64,000 nucleotides of DNA. Origin: Alphaproteobacteria bacterium. Its GTDB lineage: Bacteria > Pseudomonadota > Alphaproteobacteria > TMED109. The position numbers were made by a program, and so were the translations under genes. Of the stretch, positions 7,621 to 63,178 are shown piece by piece (the first letter of the stretch is position 1; every line of letters starts with the position of its first letter). The stretch is taken from NCBI GenBank assembly GCA_022825235.1, contig JAJDYI010000014.1, forward strand, positions 1 through 64,000. The letters run 5' to 3'. The notes beneath the pieces were generated by a model that was given only the letters and a program-made list of their open reading frames with translations, searched no databases and had not been told where the DNA came from.

Positions 7621-7752
7621 TTTCGACCTATGGCAAGATTGTGAATGCTATTTCGATTTTGATGAATGATTTTCGGCGAAATCGTTGTATGGTATATTTC
7701 GACAGAATATGAACAGATCGTATTTTTTTCGACTAGCGTGAAGGCATTTCGA
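7621..7752 (+). repeat. Phased TTTCGA hexamer array upstream of the Fic gene
   Basis: TTTCGA occurs exactly at 7621, 7651, 7697, 7727 and 7747, with a one-mismatch copy (TTTCGG) at 7671. The spacing is 30 then 20 bases in each of two triplets, and the triplets are offset by 76 bases. The region is AT-rich and ends four bases before the Fic ATG, so it could be an operator array or a decayed tandem duplication. The role is inference. Confidence 0.5.
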
Positions 7753-7755
7753 CCG

Positions 7756-9291
7756 ATGGAGCTGAATCGCGAAACGCCTCCGACATTCCAGGATCGCCTG
7801 GTCCCGAAAGAGACAAGGCTGGCAGGCTGGGCTGCGCTGGTTCATGGCCTCGGGATGGCAGCCCCGGTCCGGGCCGCGAGCGCCGTTGCCGACGGCTACA
7901 TCAAGGGCAGCAAGCGCGGAGAAGACGGCTGGACCGTTTTCGACAAGCGGTACTGGCCGGGCCACCACGTCATGGATCATGTCAGTTTCGCCCTCCGCCA
8001 TGAGTGGCTCGACCCGCTCGTGCTCAAACGTGTGTTCGACGCCACGGACCCGGACACGATTTCGGCCTTCGTGCGCGATGCGCCGACCGGGACGGTCACC
8101 CGCCGGGTCTGGTTCTTCTACGAAACGATGACCGGCCGGCGACTGCCAATCGAGGACGCGCCGACCGTGACAGCCGTCGACGCTCTCGACCCCAAGAGTT
8201 ACGTGACCAGCCATGCAGCGCTATCGAAGCGCCACCGCGTGCGGGACAACCTGCTTGGCACGGGCGGCTATTGCCCGGTCATTCGCCGCACCGAGGCTCT
8301 CGAAGACCATCGAAAACGCCGCCTCGCTGACAAAGCTGCAGAAACCGTAGGCGGATCCAGCCGACAACTGATCTCCCGGGCCGCGAGCTTCCTGCTGCTG
8401 GCAGACAGTCGTGCCAGCTTTGCGATCGAAGGCGAGCGCCCGCCGCGCAGCCGGCTTGAGCGCTGGGGTCGTGCGGTCCTTCAGGCCGGCAAAAATCGAC
8501 TGACACTCGAAGAGCTCAACCGCGTGCACGGCGTCTTGATCGAGGATTCCCGCTTTGTCCGGGCTGGCCTGCGCCCTGATGGCGTGTTCGTGGGCGAGCG
8601 CGATCGAAACGCCGATCCCCTACCGGAATTCATCGGCGCGCGACCGGAAGATCTCCCTGCCCTGCTGGATGGCCTGCTCGCGGCCAATATGCGGATGACC
8701 GAGAGTGCGATCGATCCGGTGCTTCAGGCAGCAGCCACAGCGTTCGGCTTCGTTTATGTCCACCCATATCAGGATGGAAACGGCCGCCTGCACCGCTGCC
8801 TGATCCATCACGTGTTGGCGGAACGCGAATTCACGCCGCCGGGCATGATCTTTCCCGTTTCCACGGTGATGCTGGATCGGATCGATGAATACCGCCGCAC
8901 GCTGCAAGGTCATTCCGGGCCGCTCATGCCTTTCATCGACTGGCGGCCGACGACGAACCGGAACGTCGAGATCCTGAATGATACGGCCGACTTATACCGG
9001 TATTTCGATTGTACGGCTGAAGCCGAGTTTCTGTATGCCTGTGTCGCCCGCGCCGTCGAACACGACCTGCCGGAAGAGATCGATTATTTGCGCCGCCACG
9101 ACGAAGCGCGGCGGCGCATCATGGAGACGGTGGAAATGCCCGACGGACTGGCGCAGGACCTGATCATGTTTATCCGGCAGAACAGCGGCAAACTGTCGAA
9201 AAGGCGTCGCACGAGGGAGTTCGCGGCTCTGACCGATGAAGAGGCGGCGGAAATCGAGACCATTTGCGGAGAGGTCTTCGGCGATGGCTGA
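7756..9291 (+). CDS. Fic-domain protein (class II, with N-terminal inhibitory helix)
   Basis: The 511-residue protein holds the Fic active-site motif HPYQDGNGRLHR (~336-347), which in the family transfers AMP or another nucleotide to a target hydroxyl. An inhibitory-helix motif SFAIEG (~221-226) fits the (S/T)xxxE(G/N) rule, so this is a class II, self-inhibited Fic, possibly also a de-AMPylase. The first ~190 residues form a separate conserved region (RRVWFFYETMTGRRL) seen in related Fic proteins, and the C-terminal ~120 residues are helical. The ATG at 7756 is preferred; GTG 7738 and ATG 7666 are alternatives. The upstream DNA is unusually AT-rich, which suggests acquisition. No separate antitoxin is needed. 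Confidence 0.93.
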   Translation: MELNRETPPTFQDRLVPKETRLAGWAALVHGLGMAAPVRAASAVADGYIKGSKRGEDGWTVFDKRYWPGHHVMDHVSFALRHEWLDPLVLKRVFDATDPDTISAFVRDAPTGTVTRRVWFFYETMTGRRLPIEDAPTVTAVDALDPKSYVTSHAALSKRHRVRDNLLGTGGYCPVIRRTEALEDHRKRRLADKAAETVGGSSRQLISRAASFLLLADSRASFAIEGERPPRSRLERWGRAVLQAGKNRLTLEELNRVHGVLIEDSRFVRAGLRPDGVFVGERDRNADPLPEFIGARPEDLPALLDGLLAANMRMTESAIDPVLQAAATAFGFVYVHPYQDGNGRLHRCLIHHVLAEREFTPPGMIFPVSTVMLDRIDEYRRTLQGHSGPLMPFIDWRPTTNRNVEILNDTADLYRYFDCTAEAEFLYACVARAVEHDLPEEIDYLRRHDEARRRIMETVEMPDGLAQDLIMFIRQNSGKLSKRRRTREFAALTDEEAAEIETICGEVFGDG

Positions 9292-20974: not shown

Positions 20975-21074
20975 CCGCCCTTCGGCTGCCTTGAGCGCAG
21001 GCGGCCGACCCGGAACTCCCGCGGATCGCCGCGCCGTGTCGTGACCGGTGCCCCGACCGCGGCCCGAGGCGCCG

Positions 21075-23402
21075 TCAGGGAGTCTTTGTCTTACCCGGCC
21101 TGACCAGCCAGGCGCCCAGGGCCGGCAGCAGGACGACCGCCCCGATCATGTTGACCAGGAACATGAACGTCAGCACCGTGCCCACATCGGCCTGGAACTT
21201 CAGCGGCGCGACGATCCACGTCGCGACCCCGACGGCCAGGGTGAGGGCGGTGAGCACGACCCCCGCTCCGGTGGTCGCCAGCGTCCGCTCGTAGGCCGTG
21301 GCGAAGTCGAGGCCCTCCGCGAGCAGAGTGCGGAGCCGCCCGTAGATGTAGATGCCGTAGTCCACCCCGATCCCCGCCCCGAGCGCCACGACCGGCAGGG
21401 TGGACACCTTGAGGCCGATCTCGAGCAGCCCCATGAGGGCGTAGGCGAGCAGGGAGACGACCGCGAGCGGCGCAATGATGCACACGGTCGCTGCCGCCGA
21501 CCGGAAGGAGAGCAGGCACAGCACGATGACCGCGGCGTACACGTAGGCGAGGATTGGGAACTGCGAAGCTGCCACCTCTTCGTTGGTCGCCGCCATCACT
21601 CCGACGTTGCCGGAGGCAAGCCGGAACGCGATGCGGTCGTCCGGGTTCGCGGCGTCGAATGCCTTCACCGCGTCGACCACGCGCTCGATGGTCTCGGCCT
21701 TGTGGTCGGCCGTGTAGATCGACACCGGCATGACGCTGCAGTCGAGGTTGAGCAGCCCGCTGCTCGTCGGCACCGGGGAGACGGACTGCACGATCATGTA
21801 GCGATTGCGGGGGACGGTCCGCCACTTGAGGTTGCCCTCGTTCCACATCGCGTTGATGCTGCTCATGGTGCCGGCCAGCCCGCGCACCGACTGGACGCCC
21901 TCCACGTTGCGGACGTGCCATTCGAAAGCGTCGAGGGCGCGCATCACGTCGTAGTCGATGCAGCCCTCCGCCACCGTCTCCACGATCACCGTCAGGACAT
22001 CCACGCCGATGTCGAAGCGTTCAGTGATCACGGCCGAATCGAGGTTGTAGACGGACTCGGCCCGCAGCTCCGGCACGCCCTGGTGCTCGTCGCCAATCCG
22101 TACTTCGGGTGCCACGTACGCGCCGCCGGCCAGGAGCACCAGGGCCACGCCGATCACGGCGGCGGCGGGCCCCCGGTGCGCGAGGCGCGCCATCCGCGAC
22201 CACACCGGCTGCAGCAGGTCGTCGCGCTCGCGGGTCGCGCGGCGCTGCGCGTCGCTCGTCTCGAAGTACGAGAGCAGCACCGGCAGCAGCGCGAGATTGG
22301 TGAGGATGATCGCCGCCACCCCGAGGCTCGCGGTCATGGCGATCTCCTTCATGACCTGGACCTCGATGAACGAGATGGTGATGAAGCCCACCGAATCGGA
22401 GGCCAGCGCGACCGCGCCCGGCAGCAGGAGGCGGCGGACGCTCGCCCGCGCGGCCGCAAGAGCGGTGGCGCCGCCCGCTTCCTCCGCGCGCATCGCGCTC
22501 ACCATCTGGACCCCGTGGCTCACGCCGATCGCGAACACGAGGAACGGCACCAGGATGGACATCGGATCGACGCCGAAACCCAGCGCTGTGACGCCGCCGA
22601 GCTGCCAGACCACGGCGACCAGGGAACAGGCGAGCGGCGGTATCGTCAGCCGGAGCGACCGGGTGTAGGCGTAGACGAACAGCGCGGTGATCAGGACCGC
22701 GATCCCGAAGAACGCGACCACCCGGGTCGCGCCCGCCGCGATGTCGCCCACCACCTTGGCGAACCCGATGACGTGCAGGTCGACGTGCACCTCCACGTCC
22801 GCGTCCGCGGTGACCGACTGGCGGATTCGTTCCAGCTCACCCGCGACCTCGATGTAGTCAAGCCGCTCGCCGGTGTTAGGGTGGAACTCCTGCAGCTTGG
22901 CGGCCACGATCGCGCCGGTGAAGTCGTTGGCCACCAGGCGTCCGACGAGGCCGGCCTTGATGATGTTCTCCCGTACCCCGGCAAAGCCCGCTTCGTTGGG
23001 CTCGAAGTCCACCGGCAGCACGTTTCCGGCCGCGACGCCATCCTCCACCACCTCGATGAACCGCACGTTCGGCGTGAGGATCGAGAACACCTGGGTCCGG
23101 TCGACGCCCGGCAGGAAGAACGTCGCATCGGTCACCTGCCGGAGCGCCTCGAAGAAACCGGGCGTGAACATGTCGCCGTTGCGCGCCATCACCGCGATCA
23201 GGACGCGGTCGGCGCCGCCGAACTCCTCGCGGTACTCGAGGAAGGTCTGCATGTACTCGTGCTCGACGGGTACCAGCTTGGTGAAGCCAGCATCCACGCG
23301 CAGCCCAGTCGCGGACCATCCCATCGCGATGGTGACGAGCGCGAACGCCGCGAGCACGAGCGGGCGGCGGGCGAACAGGAGCCGTTCGATGCGCTCCGTC
23401 AC
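21075..23402 (-). CDS. RND/MMPL family transporter
   Basis: The 775-residue inner-membrane protein has the MMPL/RND layout: one N-terminal helix (residues ~13-33), a large periplasmic loop, five or six helices, a second loop and a C-terminal helix cluster. Characteristic helices include FLVFAIGVSHGVQMVSAM and VVALGAGIGVDYGIYIYGRL, with the acidic and Gly residues of the proton relay. It is the last gene of a minus-strand operon with DUF1302, DUF1329 and YCF48-like genes. This quartet recurs in bacteria that handle lipids, sterols or other hydrophobic compounds, so export or import of such a molecule is likely; the substrate is unknown. Confidence 0.92.
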   Translation of the reverse strand: MTERIERLLFARRPLVLAAFALVTIAMGWSATGLRVDAGFTKLVPVEHEYMQTFLEYREEFGGADRVLIAVMARNGDMFTPGFFEALRQVTDATFFLPGVDRTQVFSILTPNVRFIEVVEDGVAAGNVLPVDFEPNEAGFAGVRENIIKAGLVGRLVANDFTGAIVAAKLQEFHPNTGERLDYIEVAGELERIRQSVTADADVEVHVDLHVIGFAKVVGDIAAGATRVVAFFGIAVLITALFVYAYTRSLRLTIPPLACSLVAVVWQLGGVTALGFGVDPMSILVPFLVFAIGVSHGVQMVSAMRAEEAGGATALAAARASVRRLLLPGAVALASDSVGFITISFIEVQVMKEIAMTASLGVAAIILTNLALLPVLLSYFETSDAQRRATRERDDLLQPVWSRMARLAHRGPAAAVIGVALVLLAGGAYVAPEVRIGDEHQGVPELRAESVYNLDSAVITERFDIGVDVLTVIVETVAEGCIDYDVMRALDAFEWHVRNVEGVQSVRGLAGTMSSINAMWNEGNLKWRTVPRNRYMIVQSVSPVPTSSGLLNLDCSVMPVSIYTADHKAETIERVVDAVKAFDAANPDDRIAFRLASGNVGVMAATNEEVAASQFPILAYVYAAVIVLCLLSFRSAAATVCIIAPLAVVSLLAYALMGLLEIGLKVSTLPVVALGAGIGVDYGIYIYGRLRTLLAEGLDFATAYERTLATTGAGVVLTALTLAVGVATWIVAPLKFQADVGTVLTFMFLVNMIGAVVLLPALGAWLVRPGKTKTP

Positions 23403-23510
23403 GGGCTCGCCCTGCCGACGGCGCCCTTCGTCACCCCGGCGCGCGCGCGGCTCGTTTGGCGGTGCCTGCGCACATGCGGCGAGAGGACGGCCACGGCCTC
23501 CATCGGGGAG

Positions 23511-24524
23511 CTAGTCGGCGCCCGGCCAGCGCCGGACGCCGAATTCTCCGACCAGCAGCACGCCGCCGTCCGAGAGCGGCAGCGCCGCCAAGATCCCTGC
23601 ACGCGACTCCAGCCTGTGGCCGGCCATGCTGTGCCCATCGTCGTCGCTGGTGAGCACGCTGCCTTCCAGGCCGGTCACGACGATCCGACCGGACGGGAGC
23701 CGGACGGCTCCGGTCAGGGTCGCACGGGTGCGGGTGGTCACCTCCGCCCAGGTCTCGCCGCCGTCCGCGGAGCGGAACAGATGGCCCTTGAGCCCCGCCA
23801 GCAGCACCTGGTCCTCGTCGAGCGCGAGCCCGCCGAACCACGAGCCGGCGTAGGGCGAGGACAGTTCGCGCCAGTTCGCGCCGCCGTCGTCGGAGCGGTA
23901 CGCGACCCCGGCCTCCGCGGCGATGAACAGGCGTTGCGACGGCGGCCGCGACGGATCAGTCGCCGGTCCCGCCGCGGGTACCAGCGCGTTCAGGTGGAAG
24001 TCGTTCGCGCTGATGGTCCGCGAGGTCCAGGTCTCGCCGCCATCCTCGGTCGCTAGGAAGTAGCCGTAGGCCCCGACCGCGAAGCCGGTGTCCGCATCGC
24101 GAAACCAGACGTCGAGCAGGGGGAGTTCCTCCTCCGGCGCCTGGTGCACCATCGACCAGGTCGCACCGCCGTCGCCGGTACGGAGGATCACCGCGTCGTG
24201 TCCCACGGCCCAGCCCGTGTGCTCGTCGTGCATGTGGACCGCCGTGAGCAGGACGCGGGTGGGCACCTCGGCCTGCGTCCAGCTGGCGCCGTCGTCGGTG
24301 GATACCAGCACGTGGCCACGTGCCCCCACCACCACCAGCCGCGAGCCGACCGCGGCGCCGTCGAGCAGCAGGGATTCGATCGCGAGCGGCGCCTGTACGG
24401 CTGCCTCGGCGCCCGCGCTCCCCGGCGCGAGAAGGGCCAGCAGGCCGACGATCGTCAGGTGCGGCGTCGGTCGGCGCGAGCGAGCGCGGGCCGGGGCGCC
24501 CCGGACCGGCAGTGCGGGTCCCAT
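23511..24524 (-). CDS. YCF48-related beta-propeller protein, secreted
   Basis: The ~337-residue protein has an N-terminal signal-like segment (LTIVGLLALLAPGSAGA) and a series of BNR/sialidase-type repeats (STDDGASWTQAEVP, RTGDGGATWSMV, ATEDGGETWTSR, RSADGGETWAEV). This is the YCF48/Hcf136-like seven-bladed propeller. It should be periplasmic and may be an accessory or assembly factor for the MMPL transporter encoded next. The start at 24524 is preferred because it places the signal peptide near the N-terminus. Confidence 0.88.
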   Translation of the reverse strand: MGPALPVRGAPARARSRRPTPHLTIVGLLALLAPGSAGAEAAVQAPLAIESLLLDGAAVGSRLVVVGARGHVLVSTDDGASWTQAEVPTRVLLTAVHMHDEHTGWAVGHDAVILRTGDGGATWSMVHQAPEEELPLLDVWFRDADTGFAVGAYGYFLATEDGGETWTSRTISANDFHLNALVPAAGPATDPSRPPSQRLFIAAEAGVAYRSDDGGANWRELSSPYAGSWFGGLALDEDQVLLAGLKGHLFRSADGGETWAEVTTRTRATLTGAVRLPSGRIVVTGLEGSVLTSDDDGHSMAGHRLESRAGILAALPLSDGGVLLVGEFGVRRWPGAD

Positions 24525-24658: not shown

Positions 24659-26038
24659 TCACCGCCGACCTTCGCGGCGCAGCGCCGCGGGCGTGAAGTC
24701 GCGTGATGTCAGGCCCGAGTCCCACGTGCACATCGGGAACTCGTTGTCGAGGCCGAAGGCAAGGTAGCGCCCGGCCTGGAGATCGGTGTGCACCTCGAGC
24801 GTCGACCACATCAGCGGCTTCTCGTAGTAGTTGACGACGTGGGCCTCCGACACCCGCCAGAGCTGGTCGCGGCTGTCGTAGATGTCCCCGACCATGATCT
24901 GCCACGAATCCTCGTCGACGTACAGGGTGCGCCGCTTGTAGATGTGGGTCGCGCCCTCCTTGAGCGTGGCTTCCACCACCCAGACCCGGTGCAGCTCGTA
25001 GCGCAGCAGTTCCGGGTTGACGTGCAAGGGGTGGAGGATGTCGGTGAAGGCGAGGTCGCCGCCATGCAGCCGGTACGAGTTGTACGGGACGTACAGTTCG
25101 CGCTTGCCGACCAGCTCCCAGTCGTAGCGGTCCACGGCCCCGTTGAACATGTCGAACTGGTCCGCAGTCCGCAGGCCGTCGGCCGACGTGCCCGGGTTGT
25201 CGTAGGCGATGTTCGGCGCCCGCCGTACCCGGCGCTGGCCGGGGTTGTAGGTCCAGGCGTTCCGCGGCTCGCGGAACTGGTTCATGGTCTCGTGCACCAG
25301 GACGATATCGCCCGCGAGCCGGGCCGGCGCGAGCGTTTCCTGCTTGAACAGGATCATCGTGTTGCCGAGTTCGTCCAGCGTCATGTCCGGGAGCGAGTAG
25401 CGCAGCTCGATCTCGAGGCTCTGCTTCACCAGCGTGAAGTCGCCGCCGCGGGTGACGGCGGCCTGCCCGATGACGCACGCTACCGACTCGCCCCGGTAGC
25501 GCAGCAGGTGGTTCCAGATCACCTCCAGGCCGTTGGCGGGAATCGGGAACGGGATGCCGATTACCGCATCACCCACGCCGTTGCCATCGTCCACGAGCCT
25601 GGCGGTGGCGGCGACGTCCCGGGTGGCGTCGTAGATCCGTTGGGGAACCGACGCGCTCCGCCGGGTCGGATAGACCTGCATGTTGAAACTCGGATACGTC
25701 TCCAACAGGCGCTGGTGTCCGATCGAGAGCCGGTCGCGGTGCTCATCCAGGTTGCCGGCGTCGATGACGAACAGCGGCGCATCGGCGGCGTACGGATCGC
25801 GGTGATGCTCGCCGACGCTGTAGCCGGCCGGCGGCTCCGTGATGCCGCCGGTCCACTCCGGGATGGTGCCGTCGGCATTGCCGGCCCGTTCGCCGCCCAG
25901 CGGCGTGAGGTCGGCGCCGAGCCGCGCAATCTCCTCCGCCGGGATCTCGGCGGAGGCAGGGGTGGCGAGGACGCAGCCGAGGACGAGGGCAGCGCCCAGA
26001 CGAAGCGTGGTCGAACTCGTGTCATTCATGGCGTTCAT
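24659..26038 (-). CDS. DUF1329 outer-membrane lipoprotein-sorting-like protein
   Basis: The 459-residue protein has a signal peptide (TLRLGAALVLGCVLATPASA) and the DUF1329 pattern: LTPLGGERAGNADGTIPEWTGG near the mature start, and tryptophan-rich strands such as RAPNIAYDNPGTS, FDMFNGAVDRYDWELVGKRE and RRTLYVDEDSWQIMVGDIYD. The fold is LolA/LolB-like, suited to carrying a lipid through the periplasm. It begins 12 nt after the DUF1302 stop, in the same operon as the MMPL transporter. The cargo is unknown. Confidence 0.93.
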   Translation of the reverse strand: MNAMNDTSSTTLRLGAALVLGCVLATPASAEIPAEEIARLGADLTPLGGERAGNADGTIPEWTGGITEPPAGYSVGEHHRDPYAADAPLFVIDAGNLDEHRDRLSIGHQRLLETYPSFNMQVYPTRRSASVPQRIYDATRDVAATARLVDDGNGVGDAVIGIPFPIPANGLEVIWNHLLRYRGESVACVIGQAAVTRGGDFTLVKQSLEIELRYSLPDMTLDELGNTMILFKQETLAPARLAGDIVLVHETMNQFREPRNAWTYNPGQRRVRRAPNIAYDNPGTSADGLRTADQFDMFNGAVDRYDWELVGKRELYVPYNSYRLHGGDLAFTDILHPLHVNPELLRYELHRVWVVEATLKEGATHIYKRRTLYVDEDSWQIMVGDIYDSRDQLWRVSEAHVVNYYEKPLMWSTLEVHTDLQAGRYLAFGLDNEFPMCTWDSGLTSRDFTPAALRREGRR

Positions 26039-26050
26039 GGCCTCGGATCC

Positions 26051-28288
26051 TCAGAACGAGTACTTGACGGAGGCGGAGATGAAGTCGCGGTCGAGCAGCT
26101 CGTTGCCGTCGCCCGCGTACCGCGTGAAGCCGACATCGGCCTGCCAGCGACTGAGATAGTCGGCGCGTATCCCGACTGTCAGCGCGGTCCGCCCCTCCAC
26201 GAAGGGGCCGCTGGGTGCGGGGCTGTTGCCGCCGACATCGTGCAGGAACTGCGCGTAGGGGAAGAGGTTGATGGATCCGATCGCGTTGTTGTAGTCGAGA
26301 CGCGCTGCGATCCGGTACCCCCACGAGGTGGCGTCCGCGTCGGCTTCATGGGGCGTGTCGGCGGGAGCCATCGGGGGTGGAGGTGGGTCTGGCAGGATGC
26401 CGCCCGCTGGACTCTCCAGGGGGGTCGTGCGCCTGTCCGGCATGTCATGGACGTGCATCATTGCGGCTTCCATGACGAACGCTAGGCTGTCCGCCCCCAT
26501 GGTGGGTCCGAAGACCTTGGTCGCGGTGGCCTGGACCTGGCTCACGTCGCGCCTGACGTAGCCCTCCACCTGCGTCGGCTCGTAGGCCGCGAGATAGCCG
26601 GGGAGACGCTCCGGAGCGGCGGAAGCCAATCCCAGCGCCGTGATGATCGGCCGGAGACCGTCCTCGAGGACCTTCCGCTCCGCCCTCTGCAGCGGCGCGT
26701 CGGCACGCAGGGAGTACTCCCCCTGCAATGCCCAGCCGGAAGCGCCGAGCACCGTGTTGAAGCTCACGCCGACGAGCCGGATGTCCTCGGGATACTCGAG
26801 GAAGTACCGCCCGCCCTTTCCGTACCGGTCGATCGCCAGGGCAGCGGCAATCCCGCCGACTTGCGCTTCGACTTGCGCCGCGGCTTCCGCTTCGACGATT
26901 CTTCTGACGTCGTTGATGCCCGTTTGGATGATGCTTGCCGCATCCTCCGGCGGCAGCAAGCCGGCCTGAACCGCCTGCTGGACGTTTTCCGTGATCTCTG
27001 CGGCGTGCCGGGCGATCTCGGCCCCGGCGGCCGCGCTCGCGGCAGCGCCCACGGTGGCTGCGGTTGTGGAAGTCGGCCTGCCGATGGCGTCGGCCGCGAA
27101 GAGCCCCGCCTGCACGCTGCTCAATTCTGAGGTCTGCGCACCGACCGTAGGCAGTCTGCTGTGGTAGTTGATGACGTAGAAGCCGAACTCGGTATCGTTC
27201 AGTTCTTCAGCAAGGTACCGCACCGCCATGCCCCACTGGCCGGATTCGTCGGGAGACCGGTCAGCGCCGCGCAGCACGCTCAAGAAGTCTCCATCGAATG
27301 CCGCCTGCGGACGTTGCGGCGCGGGGATCAACTCCCCTGTCAGCGGGTGGGGCACCGTGTAGGCGGCCAGGTCCGCATTGATCGCCGCCGTCAGCGGGCC
27401 GAATCCGAACCCCTGGTCCCAGAGTTGCTGCTGGCCGGGCAGGAGGAGTTCATAGATGCTGGTAATGACGGCCTTTCTCGCACCCGGTCCCGCGTAGTCG
27501 GTGCTCGAGAAGTAGCTCCCGACCGGATCGATCCGGGTCTCGTCCCAGTCAAACTGGTAGAAGCCTTCGACCGACAGGTTGTCGGTCGGTGCGACTGCCA
27601 CCGAGGCCAGTCCCGCGGGCAGCAGCGCTTCCCGGAGTTCGGAACCCGGCAGCCTGAGCTTGCTGACGTCGAAGGGGTTGACGGCGTTGATGCCGTTCGG
27701 GATGAAGGTGCTCTCTCCCCAGTTCAGCACGTGCCGGCCCAGCCGGACGTCGATGGGCATGTCGCCGGCGTCGAATGCAGCGGTGACGTACGCATCGAGG
27801 ATCTCGACATCGCTGCCCACGCGCTCTTTCGCCTCGTCGCTCAGTGGGGTGCGCTCGCGCTCGCCGTCCTGATTCTCGAAGTCGAGGAAGCCCGTGGCCC
27901 GGACGAATGCGCCGAACTCGCCAGTGCGGATGTCGAGGTCCGAGGTGAATTTGGAGGCGTTGCTGACGACGCCGCGGTCGTAGTTGAGATCGCCGTCGTT
28001 GCCGTTGGTGTCGTCGGCCAGAGTGCCGTCGCGCTCCTCTACCCGGATGGTCAGGCCGTGGGAGAGGATGGTGTCCAGGCTCCCCCGGTACCCGTTCTCA
28101 TTGAACTCGACGGCCGTCGCGGGCACGGTCTGCAGGAGGAGGCCGCCAACCGTGACGATCGTGGCCATGGCGATCGGCCCGACGCCGCAGCTTCGGGCCC
28201 AGCCGGGTCGGCGCGTCGCGCCTCCAGGCAGCAGCCCGCGCGCAGGATGAAGCGATCCGGTCGCGTCAGATTCACGAATGTTCCGCAT
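26051..28288 (-). CDS. DUF1302 outer-membrane beta-barrel protein
   Basis: The ~745-residue protein starts at an ATG (28288) with GGAGG six bases upstream. It has a signal region ending near TVPATAVEF and a long series of amphipathic strands with aromatic girdles, ending in a C-terminal Phe (SASVKYSF), as outer-membrane barrels do. DUF1302 markers include NYDRGVVSNASKFTSDLDI, VRLGRHVLNWGESTFIPNGI and AFDGDFLSVL. It heads the operon DUF1302-DUF1329-YCF48-MMPL and is likely its outer-membrane channel. A helical Ala-rich insertion (~residues 380-480) is longer than I expect for a barrel loop. Confidence 0.92.
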   Translation of the reverse strand: MRNIRESDATGSLHPARGLLPGGATRRPGWARSCGVGPIAMATIVTVGGLLLQTVPATAVEFNENGYRGSLDTILSHGLTIRVEERDGTLADDTNGNDGDLNYDRGVVSNASKFTSDLDIRTGEFGAFVRATGFLDFENQDGERERTPLSDEAKERVGSDVEILDAYVTAAFDAGDMPIDVRLGRHVLNWGESTFIPNGINAVNPFDVSKLRLPGSELREALLPAGLASVAVAPTDNLSVEGFYQFDWDETRIDPVGSYFSSTDYAGPGARKAVITSIYELLLPGQQQLWDQGFGFGPLTAAINADLAAYTVPHPLTGELIPAPQRPQAAFDGDFLSVLRGADRSPDESGQWGMAVRYLAEELNDTEFGFYVINYHSRLPTVGAQTSELSSVQAGLFAADAIGRPTSTTAATVGAAASAAAGAEIARHAAEITENVQQAVQAGLLPPEDAASIIQTGINDVRRIVEAEAAAQVEAQVGGIAAALAIDRYGKGGRYFLEYPEDIRLVGVSFNTVLGASGWALQGEYSLRADAPLQRAERKVLEDGLRPIITALGLASAAPERLPGYLAAYEPTQVEGYVRRDVSQVQATATKVFGPTMGADSLAFVMEAAMMHVHDMPDRRTTPLESPAGGILPDPPPPPMAPADTPHEADADATSWGYRIAARLDYNNAIGSINLFPYAQFLHDVGGNSPAPSGPFVEGRTALTVGIRADYLSRWQADVGFTRYAGDGNELLDRDFISASVKYSF

Positions 28289-28803
28289 GGAGCCCCTCCT
28301 GGCTGGACCGACGGCGGCGGTTCCGCTCGCTCGCCCGGTCACAGGTCCACGAAGACCCCTTGATTGGGTTCGGAACCCTGCGAGTTCCCGGGCAGTGGAA
28401 CGCAACGTCACCGCCGCATACTCACTTTCCTACCACGTTGATGCACCAGCGTCTATCGTACGTGTTCATATGCCCATGCCCTTTCGGGCAAATTGGGTCT
28501 GTGGCAGGCGGGGTTTGATATCGCAGCGGGCGGTCGGGTGGGCCGCGGAATCCGGTGAGCCGCGGGGTTGTGAACTTCGCGATAGCAAGGGTTGGACGAT
28601 TAGGCGACGATTGCGGGCAGCGTGGTCGCCGAGACGACGCGACCCGGATGGAACGGCCTGGGCATGCACCGTTGCGCGGCCTGGGGCGCGCCTCGTGGAC
28701 GGCCGCGAGGGCGGATATCGGCGCCCGGGAAGTGGCAGGTTTCGAGCTGTCGAGGCCCCTTGATCACCGCGGCGGCGCACTGGGGCAGTCACTGCGGCGG
28801 AGC
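28289..28803. other. Intergenic region upstream of the DUF1302 operon
   Basis: The region separates the thiolase stop from the DUF1302 start and must contain the promoter of the four-gene operon. It includes a less GC-rich patch around 28400-28480, but no clear -35/-10 pair or gene could be identified. Confidence 0.4.
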
Positions 28804-55548: not shown

Positions 55549-55571
55549 CAAACGGCTTTATAAGCGTTTGT
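55549..55571. repeat. Imperfect inverted repeat in the dnaA leader
   Basis: CAAACG plus GCTT, a 3-nt centre, then AAGC plus GTTTG pair with one bulged base. The hairpin would lie about 80 nt before the dnaA start in the mRNA. A regulatory role is unproven. Confidence 0.4.
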
Positions 55572-55648
55572 GGGGGTTGGCCTGTGCTTCTGCCGGAATG
55601 GGCGTAGCGTCGGCTGCCGGTGCCGCGCCGGGGCAGGAGGACCGCCGG

Positions 55649-56962
55649 ATGGACCGACACTGCTGGCACGCGGCGCAGTCCCGACTTCGCGACGAGATCA
55701 GTCCGGCAGCCTTTGAGAACTGGCTCTTGCCGCTGCAGCCCGTGGGGCCCGGCCGCGACCCGGTGGTGCTCGCGGCCCCGTCGGAATTTCACCGGCAGTG
55801 GGTGCGGAGCCAGTACCTCGGGCAGATCCTCTCCAGTTGCACGGCCGCGGACCCGTCGGTGCGCCGCGTCGAGATCGTCGTGCAGGAGGACGCGACCGTG
55901 CCGTCGGCGGAGGCGCCGCGTGCGTCTTCCTCCTCGCACCTCGGTAGCACGCTCGATCGCCAGCGAACGTTCGACTCGTTTGTGGTCGGCGCCTGCAACC
56001 AGGTCGCCTATGCCGCGGCCCGGCGCGTGGCCGATGGACGGACCAGTGGGAATCGGAACCTGCTGTTCTTCTCCGGCGGCGTGGGTCTCGGCAAGACCCA
56101 CCTGATGCACGCGATCGCCTGGGAGATCATGCACCACGGGGACCGCAACGTCGCTTACCTGTCCTCCGAGAAATTCACCTCGGAGTTCGTCGCCGCGCTG
56201 CGCGCCAAGGACACCGACGCGTTCAAGCGCCGCTTCCGCACGGTCGACGTCTTCATGGTCGACGACGTGCAGTTTTTGGCCAGCAGGGTGCAGACGCAGG
56301 AGGAGTTCTTTCACACGTTCGACGCGCTCTCGAACGAGGGGAAGCAGATCGTGGTGTCGGGCGACCGGGCGCCGGTCGACATGGAGGACGTGGACCGGCG
56401 GCTGCGTTCACGGCTCGGCGGCGGTCTCCTGGTCGAGCTGCGGGCGACCACCTACGAGCTGCGCCTCAGCATTCTCCAGCGGCACCGCGGCCGCTACGAC
56501 GAGGTCGACGTGCCGGATTCGGTGCTGGAGTTCCTGGCCAACAAGATCACCAACGACATTCGCGAACTCACGGGGGCACTGGCGCGCGTCGTGGCGCAGG
56601 CGGAATACACAAAGCAGCCGGTCACGCTTGGCCTGGTGCGCGACGCGCTGCCCGACCTGCTGCGGGCGAACGAGCGCCGGCTGACCGTGGAGATGATCCA
56701 GAAGGCGGTGACCGAGTACTACGGCCTGCGTCGCGGCGACCTGTCCTCGCCTCGCCGCGAGCGCCGCATCGTGGGGCCGCGCCAGGTCGCGATGTGGCTC
56801 TGCAAGCAGCTCACCCCGATGAGCCTTCCCGACATCGGGAGCCGGTTCAACCGGGATCACTCCACCGTGGTGCATTCCACGCGCCGGGTGGACGAACGGC
56901 TGGCGAACGAGCCTGTTCTGGCCGAGGACGTCGAGAAGCTGAAACACTGGATTCTCGACTGA
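55649..56962 (+). CDS. dnaA: Chromosomal replication initiator DnaA
   Basis: The 437-residue initiator has domain I (CWHAAQSRLRDEISPAAFENWL), a short Ser/Ala linker, the AAA+ domain from ~107 with Walker A GGVGLGKTHLMHAIAW and Walker B DVFMVDDVQFL, and domain IV with the helix-turn-helix signature. That signature reads FNRDHSTVVHS where FGGRDHTTVxHA is usual, one residue shorter. The ATG at 55649 has AGGAGG eight bases upstream; the longer open frame is not needed. It begins the replication cluster dnaA-dnaN-recF-gyrB. Confidence 0.97.
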   Translation: MDRHCWHAAQSRLRDEISPAAFENWLLPLQPVGPGRDPVVLAAPSEFHRQWVRSQYLGQILSSCTAADPSVRRVEIVVQEDATVPSAEAPRASSSSHLGSTLDRQRTFDSFVVGACNQVAYAAARRVADGRTSGNRNLLFFSGGVGLGKTHLMHAIAWEIMHHGDRNVAYLSSEKFTSEFVAALRAKDTDAFKRRFRTVDVFMVDDVQFLASRVQTQEEFFHTFDALSNEGKQIVVSGDRAPVDMEDVDRRLRSRLGGGLLVELRATTYELRLSILQRHRGRYDEVDVPDSVLEFLANKITNDIRELTGALARVVAQAEYTKQPVTLGLVRDALPDLLRANERRLTVEMIQKAVTEYYGLRRGDLSSPRRERRIVGPRQVAMWLCKQLTPMSLPDIGSRFNRDHSTVVHSTRRVDERLANEPVLAEDVEKLKHWILD

Positions 56963-57072: not shown

Positions 57073-59508
57073 ATGAAATTTACGCTTGATCAAAAGGATC
57101 TACTGGCGCCTTTGAAGCACGTGTACGGGGTGGCGGAACGCCGCGACCGAACCCGTGCGCCGATCCTCGCCCACACGCTGATCCGGGCTCGGCGCGGCGC
57201 GGAGGGAGAGGACGGCACGATCGCCTTCGACGCTTGCGACGACGAGGTCCTCTACGAGTCCGAAGAGCTCGCCGGCACCGTCGAGGAGGAGGGCGACGCT
57301 ACCGTCGAGGCGCATCTCCTGCACGACCTTGTCAACCGGTTTCCGCGCAACACGGCAATCCGGGTGCGGATCACGCCGACCGCGGAAGCGGGCGCCGGCG
57401 ACGCAGCGGTCGAGGAGACCACCGGAGCGGTGACCGAACTCCCGGACTCCATGGGCGGCGAGCCCGAGAAACGGGTGATCATCGAGGCCGGCGGCAGCAC
57501 GTTCGCCCTGCCCTCGCTGGCGCCGGACGACTTCCAGCGCTTCGCCGACCCGCCTGGCGAGGCGCCGCTGCAGTTGCCGGCGGCTGAACTTCGGCGGCTG
57601 ATCGATTCGTGCCGCGTCTCAATGTCAGACGACGACGCGCGGCTGCACCTCAACGGGATCTTCCTCCATACGGCGGACGAGGACGGGAAGACGCTGCTGC
57701 GGGCGGCGGCGACCGACGGACACCGCTTGGCGTGTTCGGCGCACGTGCTGACGGCAGGCGGCGGCGCGATCAAGGACGGCATCACGCTCCCCAAGAAGGC
57801 GGTCGAGCAGGTCGACGGGCTGCTGCGCAATGCGGACGGCGACGTCGCGCTCTGGTCGGGCGACAACCTGCTGCGGCTGAACGTCGGGTCGGTATCGATG
57901 ACGGCGCGTCTCAACCAGGGCGGCTTCCCCGACTACCGGCGCGTGATCCCCGAGGCGCTCGAGAACCGGCTGCGGGTCAACCGGCAGGCGCTGCTGCAGG
58001 CGATCGACCGGCTGTCGGCCGTGACCGACCCCAAGAGCCGGGGCATCACCTTCCAGATCAGCGGCGACACCCTCGTCCTGAGCGCGGGCAGTCCAGCCAC
58101 CGGCCTCGGCCGCGAGGAGGTCGGCGCCAAGTACGCGGGCAAGGCGCTGGCCATCGGCTTCAACAGCGACTACGTGACCGCCTGCTGCCGCGTGATTCCG
58201 GACCAGGAGCTCGTCCTCGAGTTCGACAGCCCGAAGCACGCAGCCGTCATTCGCGGAGCCACGAGCGACGAGACCGTGCACGTGGTCATGCCGCTCAACG
58301 TCGCTGCCCAAAGCCATGCGGCGCTCTTGGAGGAGGTCGGTGCCGGTTCCGACGTCGGCATGCGGTTCACGCAGGGTCGGAACACGCTGCTGGCCCCGCT
58401 GGCCCACATGCACGGCGTCGTGGAGCGCGTCGGCACCCGTCCCATCCTCTCGCACGTCCTGATCCGGGCGGAGGCCGGCAGTGTCGTGTTCGACGCTGGC
58501 GACAACCAGGTCCTGTACGAATCCGAACGCCTGACCGCCGAGGTCGACGTTGCCGGTGCGGCCACCGTCGAGGCGCCGCTGTTCTACAGCGTGGTCGGCA
58601 AGCTGGCGGAGGGGGACGACGTCCGGGTGTCCCTGGCCCCGGGCGCTGGCGCGGACGCGGACGTAGACGGGGCCTGGCTGGTGGTCGAAGCCGGGCCGAG
58701 CAAGTTCATCCTGCCCTCGCTCTCGACCGATGATTTCCCCACGCTGCACGATCTGGAGTGGGAACGGGGCTTCGAGCTCCCCGTTTCGGATCTCCGGGGA
58801 CTGCTGAACTGGTGCCGGATCTCGATGTCGAACGATCCCGCGCGCATGCACCTGAACGGCGTGTTCCTGCACGCCGTGGAGGACGGTGGGCAGCACCTGC
58901 TCCGGGCCGGTGCCACCGACGGCCATCGCCTGTCACAGGCGGAATGCCAGTGCCCCGAGGGGGCCGAAGCGCTGGTGGACGGGGTGACGCTGCCGCGCAA
59001 GGCCGTCGAGCAGGTCGAGCGACTGCTGGCGGACGCCGACGGCGCCGTGCGGGTGGGCATGGGGAACGGCTGGATGCGGCTCGAGGTCGCAGACGTTGTG
59101 GTCGTCACCCGGCTCCACGAGAGCAAGTTCCCGGACTATCAGCGGGTCATCCCGACGGTCTGCAACAGCACGCTGCGGGTCAACTGCGCGATCCTGCAGC
59201 GGGCCCTCGAGCGCCTCACCCTCGTGGCGGACCGGAAGAGCCGTGCGATCCGCTTCGAGCTGAGCGAGGAGAGCCTCGCGGCCAGTGCCGGCGACCACCA
59301 GCACGGCGTGGGACGCGAGGTCTTCGAGGGCACGTTCCGCGGTAAGCCGGTCGTGATCGGGTTCCGGTCCGAGTACCTCATGGAGTTCTGCCAGACCGCG
59401 CGTGGCGACGAGATGATCATGGAATTTCAGGCGTCCGGCCAGCCGGCGGTGATCCGTGACACCGGAGAGGTCGGCAGGCTGCACGTCATCATGCCGATAA
59501 GGGTCTGA
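57073..59508 (+). CDS. dnaN: Tandem-duplicated single-chain DNA polymerase III beta sliding clamp
   Basis: A single 811-codon frame encodes two complete beta clamps. Half 1 is residues 1-410, a linker is ~411-429, and half 2 is 430-811. Each half has the three-domain clamp with LLAPL near the start, ATDGHRL (214-219 and 615-620), FPDYRRVIP / FPDYQRVIP (285 and 686), and a C-terminal VVMPLNV / VIMPIRV tail that forms the partner-binding cleft. Residues 180-410 and 581-811 align at a constant offset of 401. Half 1 has an acidic insertion of about 28 residues in domain I. Ordinary clamps are ~370-residue homodimers; this gene should make a whole ring from one chain. The ATG at 57073 (MKFTLDQKDLL) is the family start. 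recF follows 11 nt later. Confidence 0.95.
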   Translation: MKFTLDQKDLLAPLKHVYGVAERRDRTRAPILAHTLIRARRGAEGEDGTIAFDACDDEVLYESEELAGTVEEEGDATVEAHLLHDLVNRFPRNTAIRVRITPTAEAGAGDAAVEETTGAVTELPDSMGGEPEKRVIIEAGGSTFALPSLAPDDFQRFADPPGEAPLQLPAAELRRLIDSCRVSMSDDDARLHLNGIFLHTADEDGKTLLRAAATDGHRLACSAHVLTAGGGAIKDGITLPKKAVEQVDGLLRNADGDVALWSGDNLLRLNVGSVSMTARLNQGGFPDYRRVIPEALENRLRVNRQALLQAIDRLSAVTDPKSRGITFQISGDTLVLSAGSPATGLGREEVGAKYAGKALAIGFNSDYVTACCRVIPDQELVLEFDSPKHAAVIRGATSDETVHVVMPLNVAAQSHAALLEEVGAGSDVGMRFTQGRNTLLAPLAHMHGVVERVGTRPILSHVLIRAEAGSVVFDAGDNQVLYESERLTAEVDVAGAATVEAPLFYSVVGKLAEGDDVRVSLAPGAGADADVDGAWLVVEAGPSKFILPSLSTDDFPTLHDLEWERGFELPVSDLRGLLNWCRISMSNDPARMHLNGVFLHAVEDGGQHLLRAGATDGHRLSQAECQCPEGAEALVDGVTLPRKAVEQVERLLADADGAVRVGMGNGWMRLEVADVVVVTRLHESKFPDYQRVIPTVCNSTLRVNCAILQRALERLTLVADRKSRAIRFELSEESLAASAGDHQHGVGREVFEGTFRGKPVVIGFRSEYLMEFCQTARGDEMIMEFQASGQPAVIRDTGEVGRLHVIMPIRV

Positions 59509-59519
59509 TCAGGACCCGA

Positions 59520-63178
<3,659 letters not shown>

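Follow-up and report, generated by a model that had tools for sequence, protein, structure and literature searches.

A natural dnaN-dnaN fusion in an alphaproteobacterial genus probably encodes a single-chain sliding clamp

The window analysed here, a 64,000-nucleotide stretch of an alphaproteobacterial contig (JAJDYI010000014.1), carries the gene order dnaA - dnaN-dnaN - recF - gyrB, in which the dnaN position is occupied by a single uninterrupted frame of 811 codons plus stop, read from ATG to TGA (Table 1). An earlier note on this DNA had described the frame as one gene encoding two complete clamps in the canonical dnaA-recF-gyrB position, and both the reading frame and the profile matches bear this out. 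The three Pfam families DNA_pol3_beta, DNA_pol3_beta_2 and DNA_pol3_beta_3 (PF00712, PF02767 and PF02768) each match the chain twice, in all cases above the curated cut-offs, and the NCBIfam dnaN model TIGR00663 (cut-off of 138 bits) also matches it twice. Domains I, II and III, which follow one another in this order in each protomer of the DnaN family, are present in both halves, and the architecture of the chain is that of two protomers arranged head to tail, with a linker between them and one interface left free. The single gene of about 370 codons from which homodimeric clamps are built is absent: the frame has 811 codons, the genome holds no dnaN of about 370 codons, and there is no conserved internal start. 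Nor does the fused gene provide the two equivalent junctions of a homodimer, as the linker bridges one of them and the junction residues differ between the halves. Elsewhere in the window, adjacent DUF1329 and DUF1302 genes (24662-28411, reverse strand) lie beside a 1002-codon frame with no Pfam match (21048-24056, forward strand), and a 541-residue Fic-domain protein (PF02661, E 3.5e-13) is encoded at 7666-9291 on the forward strand.

Table 1. Position and supporting evidence of the fused dnaN gene, its parts and its neighbours in the window.
Feature	Position	Strand	Basis or remark
dnaA (5' neighbour)	55568..56962	+	identified from translation; mechanical ORF start TTG, true start may be further in
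dnaN-dnaN fusion gene	57073..59508	+	single frame, two full DNA_pol3_beta domain sets; one frame genus-wide
Half 1, complete three-domain protomer (residues 1-410), extra loops in domain I	57073..58302	+	TIGR00663, 189 bits (residues 1-406); Z about 24 with E. coli beta 2POL (365 residues)
Half 1 DNA-contact loop I, ERRDRTRAP (22-30)	57136..57162	+	R24 kept; two residues larger and more basic
Half 1 partner-cleft motif, TDGHRL (214-219)	57712..57729	+	T172, G174, H175, R176 and L177 kept
Half 1 C-terminal cleft strand, MPLNV (406-410), continuing into linker	58288..58302	+	alignment; R365 position is Asn
Linker (residues 411-429), 19 residues in all members	58303..58359	+	alignment, dN/dS, DSSP on model
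Half 2, complete three-domain protomer (residues 430-811)	58360..59505	+	TIGR00663, 207 bits (residues 430-810); Z 25.9 to Bartonella DnaN 6ptr over 371 residues
Half 2 loop I, ERVGTRP (451-457)	58423..58443	+	R24 position is Val in all members
Half 2 partner-cleft motif, TDGHRL (615-620)	58915..58932	+	residue comparison
Half 2 free C-terminus, MPIRV (807-811), canonical	59491..59505	+	alignment; R365 kept
recF	59520..60674	+	identified from translation
gyrB	60674..63178	+	identified from translation

The two halves share 43% identity over 410 columns (BLAST, E about 1e-106), far beyond chance. The gap-free correspondence claimed for residues 180-410 and 581-811 was confirmed, with 105 of 231 positions identical, and the 27 identities counted earlier in the 40-residue block starting at 180 versus 581 proved exact on recount. 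The offset of 401 residues is constant in domains II and III only; domain I, the site of the length difference, has longer loops in half 1 and differs by a net 28 residues of insertions. Out of 91 positions that are near-invariant in ordinary clamps, 47 are retained in both halves and 27 are altered in both, while 17 are altered on one side only (11 in half 1 and 6 in half 2). As several of the changes common to both halves go to the same residue, part of these 27 appear to predate the duplication.

The linker, put at about 19 residues in the earlier note, is exactly that long, and its length is fixed in all members of the genus. It shows dN/dS values of 0.05-0.39 in pairwise comparisons, and DSSP assigns a helix at residues 412-421 of the AlphaFold2 model. 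These properties bear on the idea that the fusion is a precursor, whose linker would be cut by a protease to leave as the working clamp a two-chain heterodimer, half 1 paired with half 2; such a cut inside the cell might indeed yield two chains again, though not identical ones. The tandem clamp that Sutton and colleagues engineered in E. coli, with His6 as linker, underwent substantial cleavage in vivo (PMC3022782), and, compared between the two subclades of the genus, the linker has diverged more than the halves (dN about 0.16 vs 0.07). Cleavage fits less well with a length of exactly 19 residues throughout, kept although the domain I loops vary in length, with the predicted helix and with a linker dN/dS well below 1, and we consider a cleaved precursor improbable. 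Separate initiation of half 2 was examined as a further candidate and rejected. Codon 430, its natural start, is ATG in one subclade and CTG in the other (three genomes), no conserved and well-spaced ribosome-binding site precedes it among members of the genus, and the GAGGAGG that clade A has upstream, at a distance of about 23 bases, lacks conservation. Because codon 430 varies and no usable ribosome site is conserved, half 2 is not conserved as a separately initiated product.

The host genome (3.85 Mb in 87 contigs, 96.3% complete) contains no second dnaN detectable with PF00712, PF02768 or TIGR00663, each of which matches the fused frame alone, twice. A separate normal dnaN elsewhere, named at the outset as an observation that would speak against the reading, was therefore not found by profile search in this genome. 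Since the fused gene is the sole dnaN and stands at the canonical locus, its product is most likely the essential replicative clamp of the cell, and we infer from its sole-copy status that it encircles DNA and confers processivity on the polymerase.

The fusion was found in every genome of this genus of uncultured alphaproteobacteria in which the dnaA-gyrB locus is assembled, namely six of seven, and on two further contigs. The five genus relatives concerned (G001-G004 and G006) carry the same fused frame of 804-811 codons (830-837 when open codons upstream of the start are counted), each with two DnaN matches, and a peptide-pattern scan of the contigs of GTDB species recovered six loci with 87-99% identity across all 811 residues. 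Overall, eight loci from several separate assemblies show one frame each, with 87-100% identity, and none has a stop and start between the halves. With neither a split frame in a relative nor a second dnaN in the genome, the earlier interpretation as a whole is supported. The seventh genome (G005) gave no dnaN match, and a DNA search showed that the entire dnaA-gyrB stretch is missing, the only match to the locus being a paralogue of 66-74% identity that is also present in G001; loss of the fusion was rejected in favour of an assembly gap. Two of the contigs bearing the fused gene, L033 (JAJEFC010000077.1) and L036 (JAJDZH010000184.1), sit in metagenome-assembled genomes named Vicinamibacteria and Thermoanaerobaculia, which probably reflects binning error or contamination, or misnamed species representatives.

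The whole gene is under purifying selection (dN/dS of 0.11-0.17, about 0.15), with similar values in half 1, half 2 and the linker, and synonymous divergence between the two subclades amounts to about 0.45-0.49. In most comparisons, no domain of the gene is under stronger constraint than domain II of half 1 (dN/dS 0.02-0.13). With purifying selection acting on the halves and the linker alike, assembly error and gene decay can both be dismissed. The records of the named relatives are all metagenome-assembled genomes, which might raise the suspicion of an assembly or sequencing artefact, or of a broken tandem gene pair read as one; against this, the eight loci keep the frame at a synonymous divergence reaching about 0.5, at the low dN/dS given above, and halves with 43% identity are too different for false collapse or expansion of a repeat. 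The probability of such an artefact is, in our opinion, negligible.

In a tree with 36 ordinary alphaproteobacterial DnaN proteins, half 1 and half 2 together formed one clade with support of 100/100, within which the half 1 and half 2 sequences fell into separate, well-supported clades with long branches (branch lengths of 2.36 and 1.79, respectively). The halves were again sisters when the tree was repeated with an E. coli outgroup. As the halves are each other's closest relatives, the gene has been duplicated in place and fused in frame, an event that precedes the radiation of the genus; acquisition of one half from another lineage was rejected on the same ground. Other genera of the same family possess an ordinary dnaN of 370-395 codons. 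Genomes of the genus (G000-G006) measure 2.5-3.8 Mb, versus 0.8-1.7 Mb in the rest of the family (G007-G027); the lineage bearing the fusion thus has a far larger genome than the rest of its family.

No further dnaN fusion was detected among 385 genomes drawn evenly across the class Alphaproteobacteria, where second dnaN-like genes are scattered as separate genes. Fifteen other genomes of this sample with two matches were re-searched, and these proved to contain split, partial or separate genes and not fusions. A profile of the whole fusion, run against 398 Pseudomonadota genomes, gave an end-to-end match in the host genome only (1861 bits), the next best match in the sample being an ordinary clamp aligned with the second half only (276 bits). 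Long frames in three genomes, G093 (873 codons), G652 (754) and G078 (615), were dismissed as fusions because each has a single DnaN match. In plasmid and phage collections, only single genes of about 1.1 kb were matched by both halves among the top matches listed, and viral contigs gave no match. These results describe rarity within the class and phylum samples, which could miss a distant fusion, and beyond Pseudomonadota within a peptide-pattern scan that reaches close relatives. The alphaproteobacterial genome G078 encodes, besides a normal dnaN, two 615-codon frames (L052, 4156-6000, reverse strand; L053, 1814-3658, forward strand), whose products are DnaN-like (23% identity) from residue ~218, after an extra N-terminal stretch of ~215 residues; they are possibly mobile clamp-like proteins.

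The AlphaFold2 model of the whole chain, built from a 25-row alignment, has a mean pLDDT of 82.9 and a pTM of 0.75, which is not very high, and pLDDT falls below 50 only in two domain I loops (residues 104-130 and 526-532). Half 1 folded alone and with no alignment gave a pLDDT of 33, a value that is uninformative. Each modelled half aligns with solved beta clamps at Z scores of 23-26 over about 350-376 residues, so that both are predicted to have the beta clamp fold, and the pTM of the whole model is consistent with a six-domain closed ring. The cleft residues L155, T172, G174, H175, R176, L177, P242, R246, V247, M362 and P363 are kept in both halves; half 1 departs from the canonical cleft at R365N and half 2 at N320R. 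In addition, DnaE1 retains a QSSLF clamp-binding motif. With the core cleft residues in both halves and this motif in the polymerase, both clefts probably still bind partners. One half might nevertheless be a structural filler that binds no partner and leaves a single working cleft, a sub-case of the single-chain ring and not exclusive of it. Half 1 would be the candidate, given the Asn at R365, the C-terminus that runs into the linker, the replacement of I272 by Ala and the longer branch, and E. coli is viable with one cleft (PMC3022782). The conservation of core cleft residues in both halves and the strong constraint on half 1 domain II make this rather unlikely, if less so than cleavage of the linker.

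The completeness of the domains, the fold model and the engineered precedents lead us to propose, as the likely reading, that the duplicated and fused dnaN specifies the sole replicative clamp as one 811-residue chain, forming a self-closed six-domain ring with one gate. A single chain would fold six clamp domains and close on itself around DNA. The 19-residue linker would tether domain III of half 1 to domain I of half 2 and, even when this junction parted, would keep the ring topologically closed and permit no passage of DNA; the sole DNA gate would then lie where domain III of half 2 meets domain I of half 1. If the ring is made by one chain, its topology leaves it a single gate. Head-to-tail pairing between molecules, with half 1 of one chain bound to half 2 of the next, would yield 12-domain dimers, or doubled or interlinked rings, which a flexible linker permits and the picomolar tightness of beta interfaces (reviewed in PMC11139829) might favour. 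However, the effective concentration for intramolecular closure is very high, and an engineered single-chain E. coli clamp acted like wild type (PMC3763527), so we give pairing between molecules very little credence.

The E. coli loader opens the clamp where domain III of subunit I, the delta-bound one, meets domain I of subunit II; A (delta), B and C of the loader hold the former, and C, D and E the latter (PMC11044049). By analogy, in each monomeric ring formed the delta-bound place would fall to half 2 and that of the second subunit to half 1. R24, which in E. coli contacts DNA in the second subunit and is needed for efficient loading (PMC11044049, PMC5042465), is Arg in all 36 single clamps compared; half 1 retains it and half 2 has lost it, which mildly matches this assignment of roles, although the match carries little weight alone, a chance match being easy with 17 one-sided changes. 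R80, another DNA contact, is lost in both halves, and the interface position I272 is Ala in half 1, on the tethered side, and Leu in half 2, on the gate side. The differences at R24, R365 and I272 are consistent with fixed roles, of which they are not proof. Clients, polymerases included, may bind either half, and the halves would be free to diverge. We tentatively suggest an asymmetric clamp in which the loader opens the same junction and docks on the same half each time, and the clefts split their duties, for example with loader and replicative polymerase on one half and repair or translesion factors on the other. Specialisation of the clefts, as envisaged in the earlier note, is possible, and the halves do differ at conserved positions. 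If true, an asymmetric clamp of this kind would be a bacterial counterpart of heteromeric clamps.

The delta gene holA is present in the genus. Its clamp-wrench motif (host copy on L065) reads ISLDG, with Asp at the position of E. coli F74, in seven of seven genus genomes; since this position is variable in other alphaproteobacteria, one of which also has Asp, no conclusion was drawn on co-evolution of the loader. The Pfam model PF06144 is too insensitive for delta, having missed that of Caulobacter too. A further locus of the host (L071, G000:C3:33500-42500) contains an ImuB-like Y-family polymerase frame immediately followed by a second, DnaE2-like DnaE frame, a mutasome-type cassette that would also use the fused clamp.

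Bacterial clamps are described as homodimers (PMC11139829, PMC11044049, PMC4858162), and replicative clamps are treated as such, both interfaces being equal and likewise both clefts; a single-chain clamp found in nature would show that a living cell can do without this symmetry. The fusion also offers a ready-made clamp with separately mutable halves, a tool that the authors of PMC3022782 attempted and abandoned over proteolysis. With it, one could determine at which interface the loader opens the ring, which of the halves is held by delta, and if a second cleft is required for polymerase exchange. We found no report of a natural fused clamp in the literature, subscription papers and database-only annotations lying outside the search. 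The statement of the earlier note that no natural clamp of this kind had been described accordingly stands for the literature searched; engineered single-chain E. coli clamps have been published (PMC3022782, PMC3763527).

The fused clamp is a new natural variant of the beta clamp. With bacterial beta clamps (E. coli beta2, Caulobacter 6izo/6jir, Bartonella 6ptr) it shares the same three domains, cleft and fold in each half, as well as many core positions and the dnaA-dnaN-recF-gyrB locus. Unlike the ordinary beta clamp, it holds both protomers in one chain, with halves that are 43% identical and a single free junction. The eukaryotic 9-1-1 clamp is likewise a ring of non-identical subunits with fixed roles, but it consists of three separate chains and has a checkpoint function, not a replicative one. 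Duplication is also seen in Bacillus DnaN-2 (reviewed in PMC3290774) and in the second dnaN-like genes of alphaproteobacteria, although there the copies are separate genes and proteins. Engineered single-chain yeast PCNA (PMC2824762, PMC3763527) similarly places the whole ring in one chain with one free interface, yet it is made of three two-domain protomers. A like layout is found in the engineered single-chain and tandem E. coli clamps, with head-to-tail protomers joined by a short linker and one interface free (PMC3763527, PMC3022782), of which the version with an 11-residue linker was wild-type-like in a clamp-loader ATPase assay (PMC3763527). Those clamps, however, are man-made from E. 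coli protomers, whereas the fusion described here arose in nature, has diverged halves joined by 19 residues and stands alone as the clamp gene of its genome.
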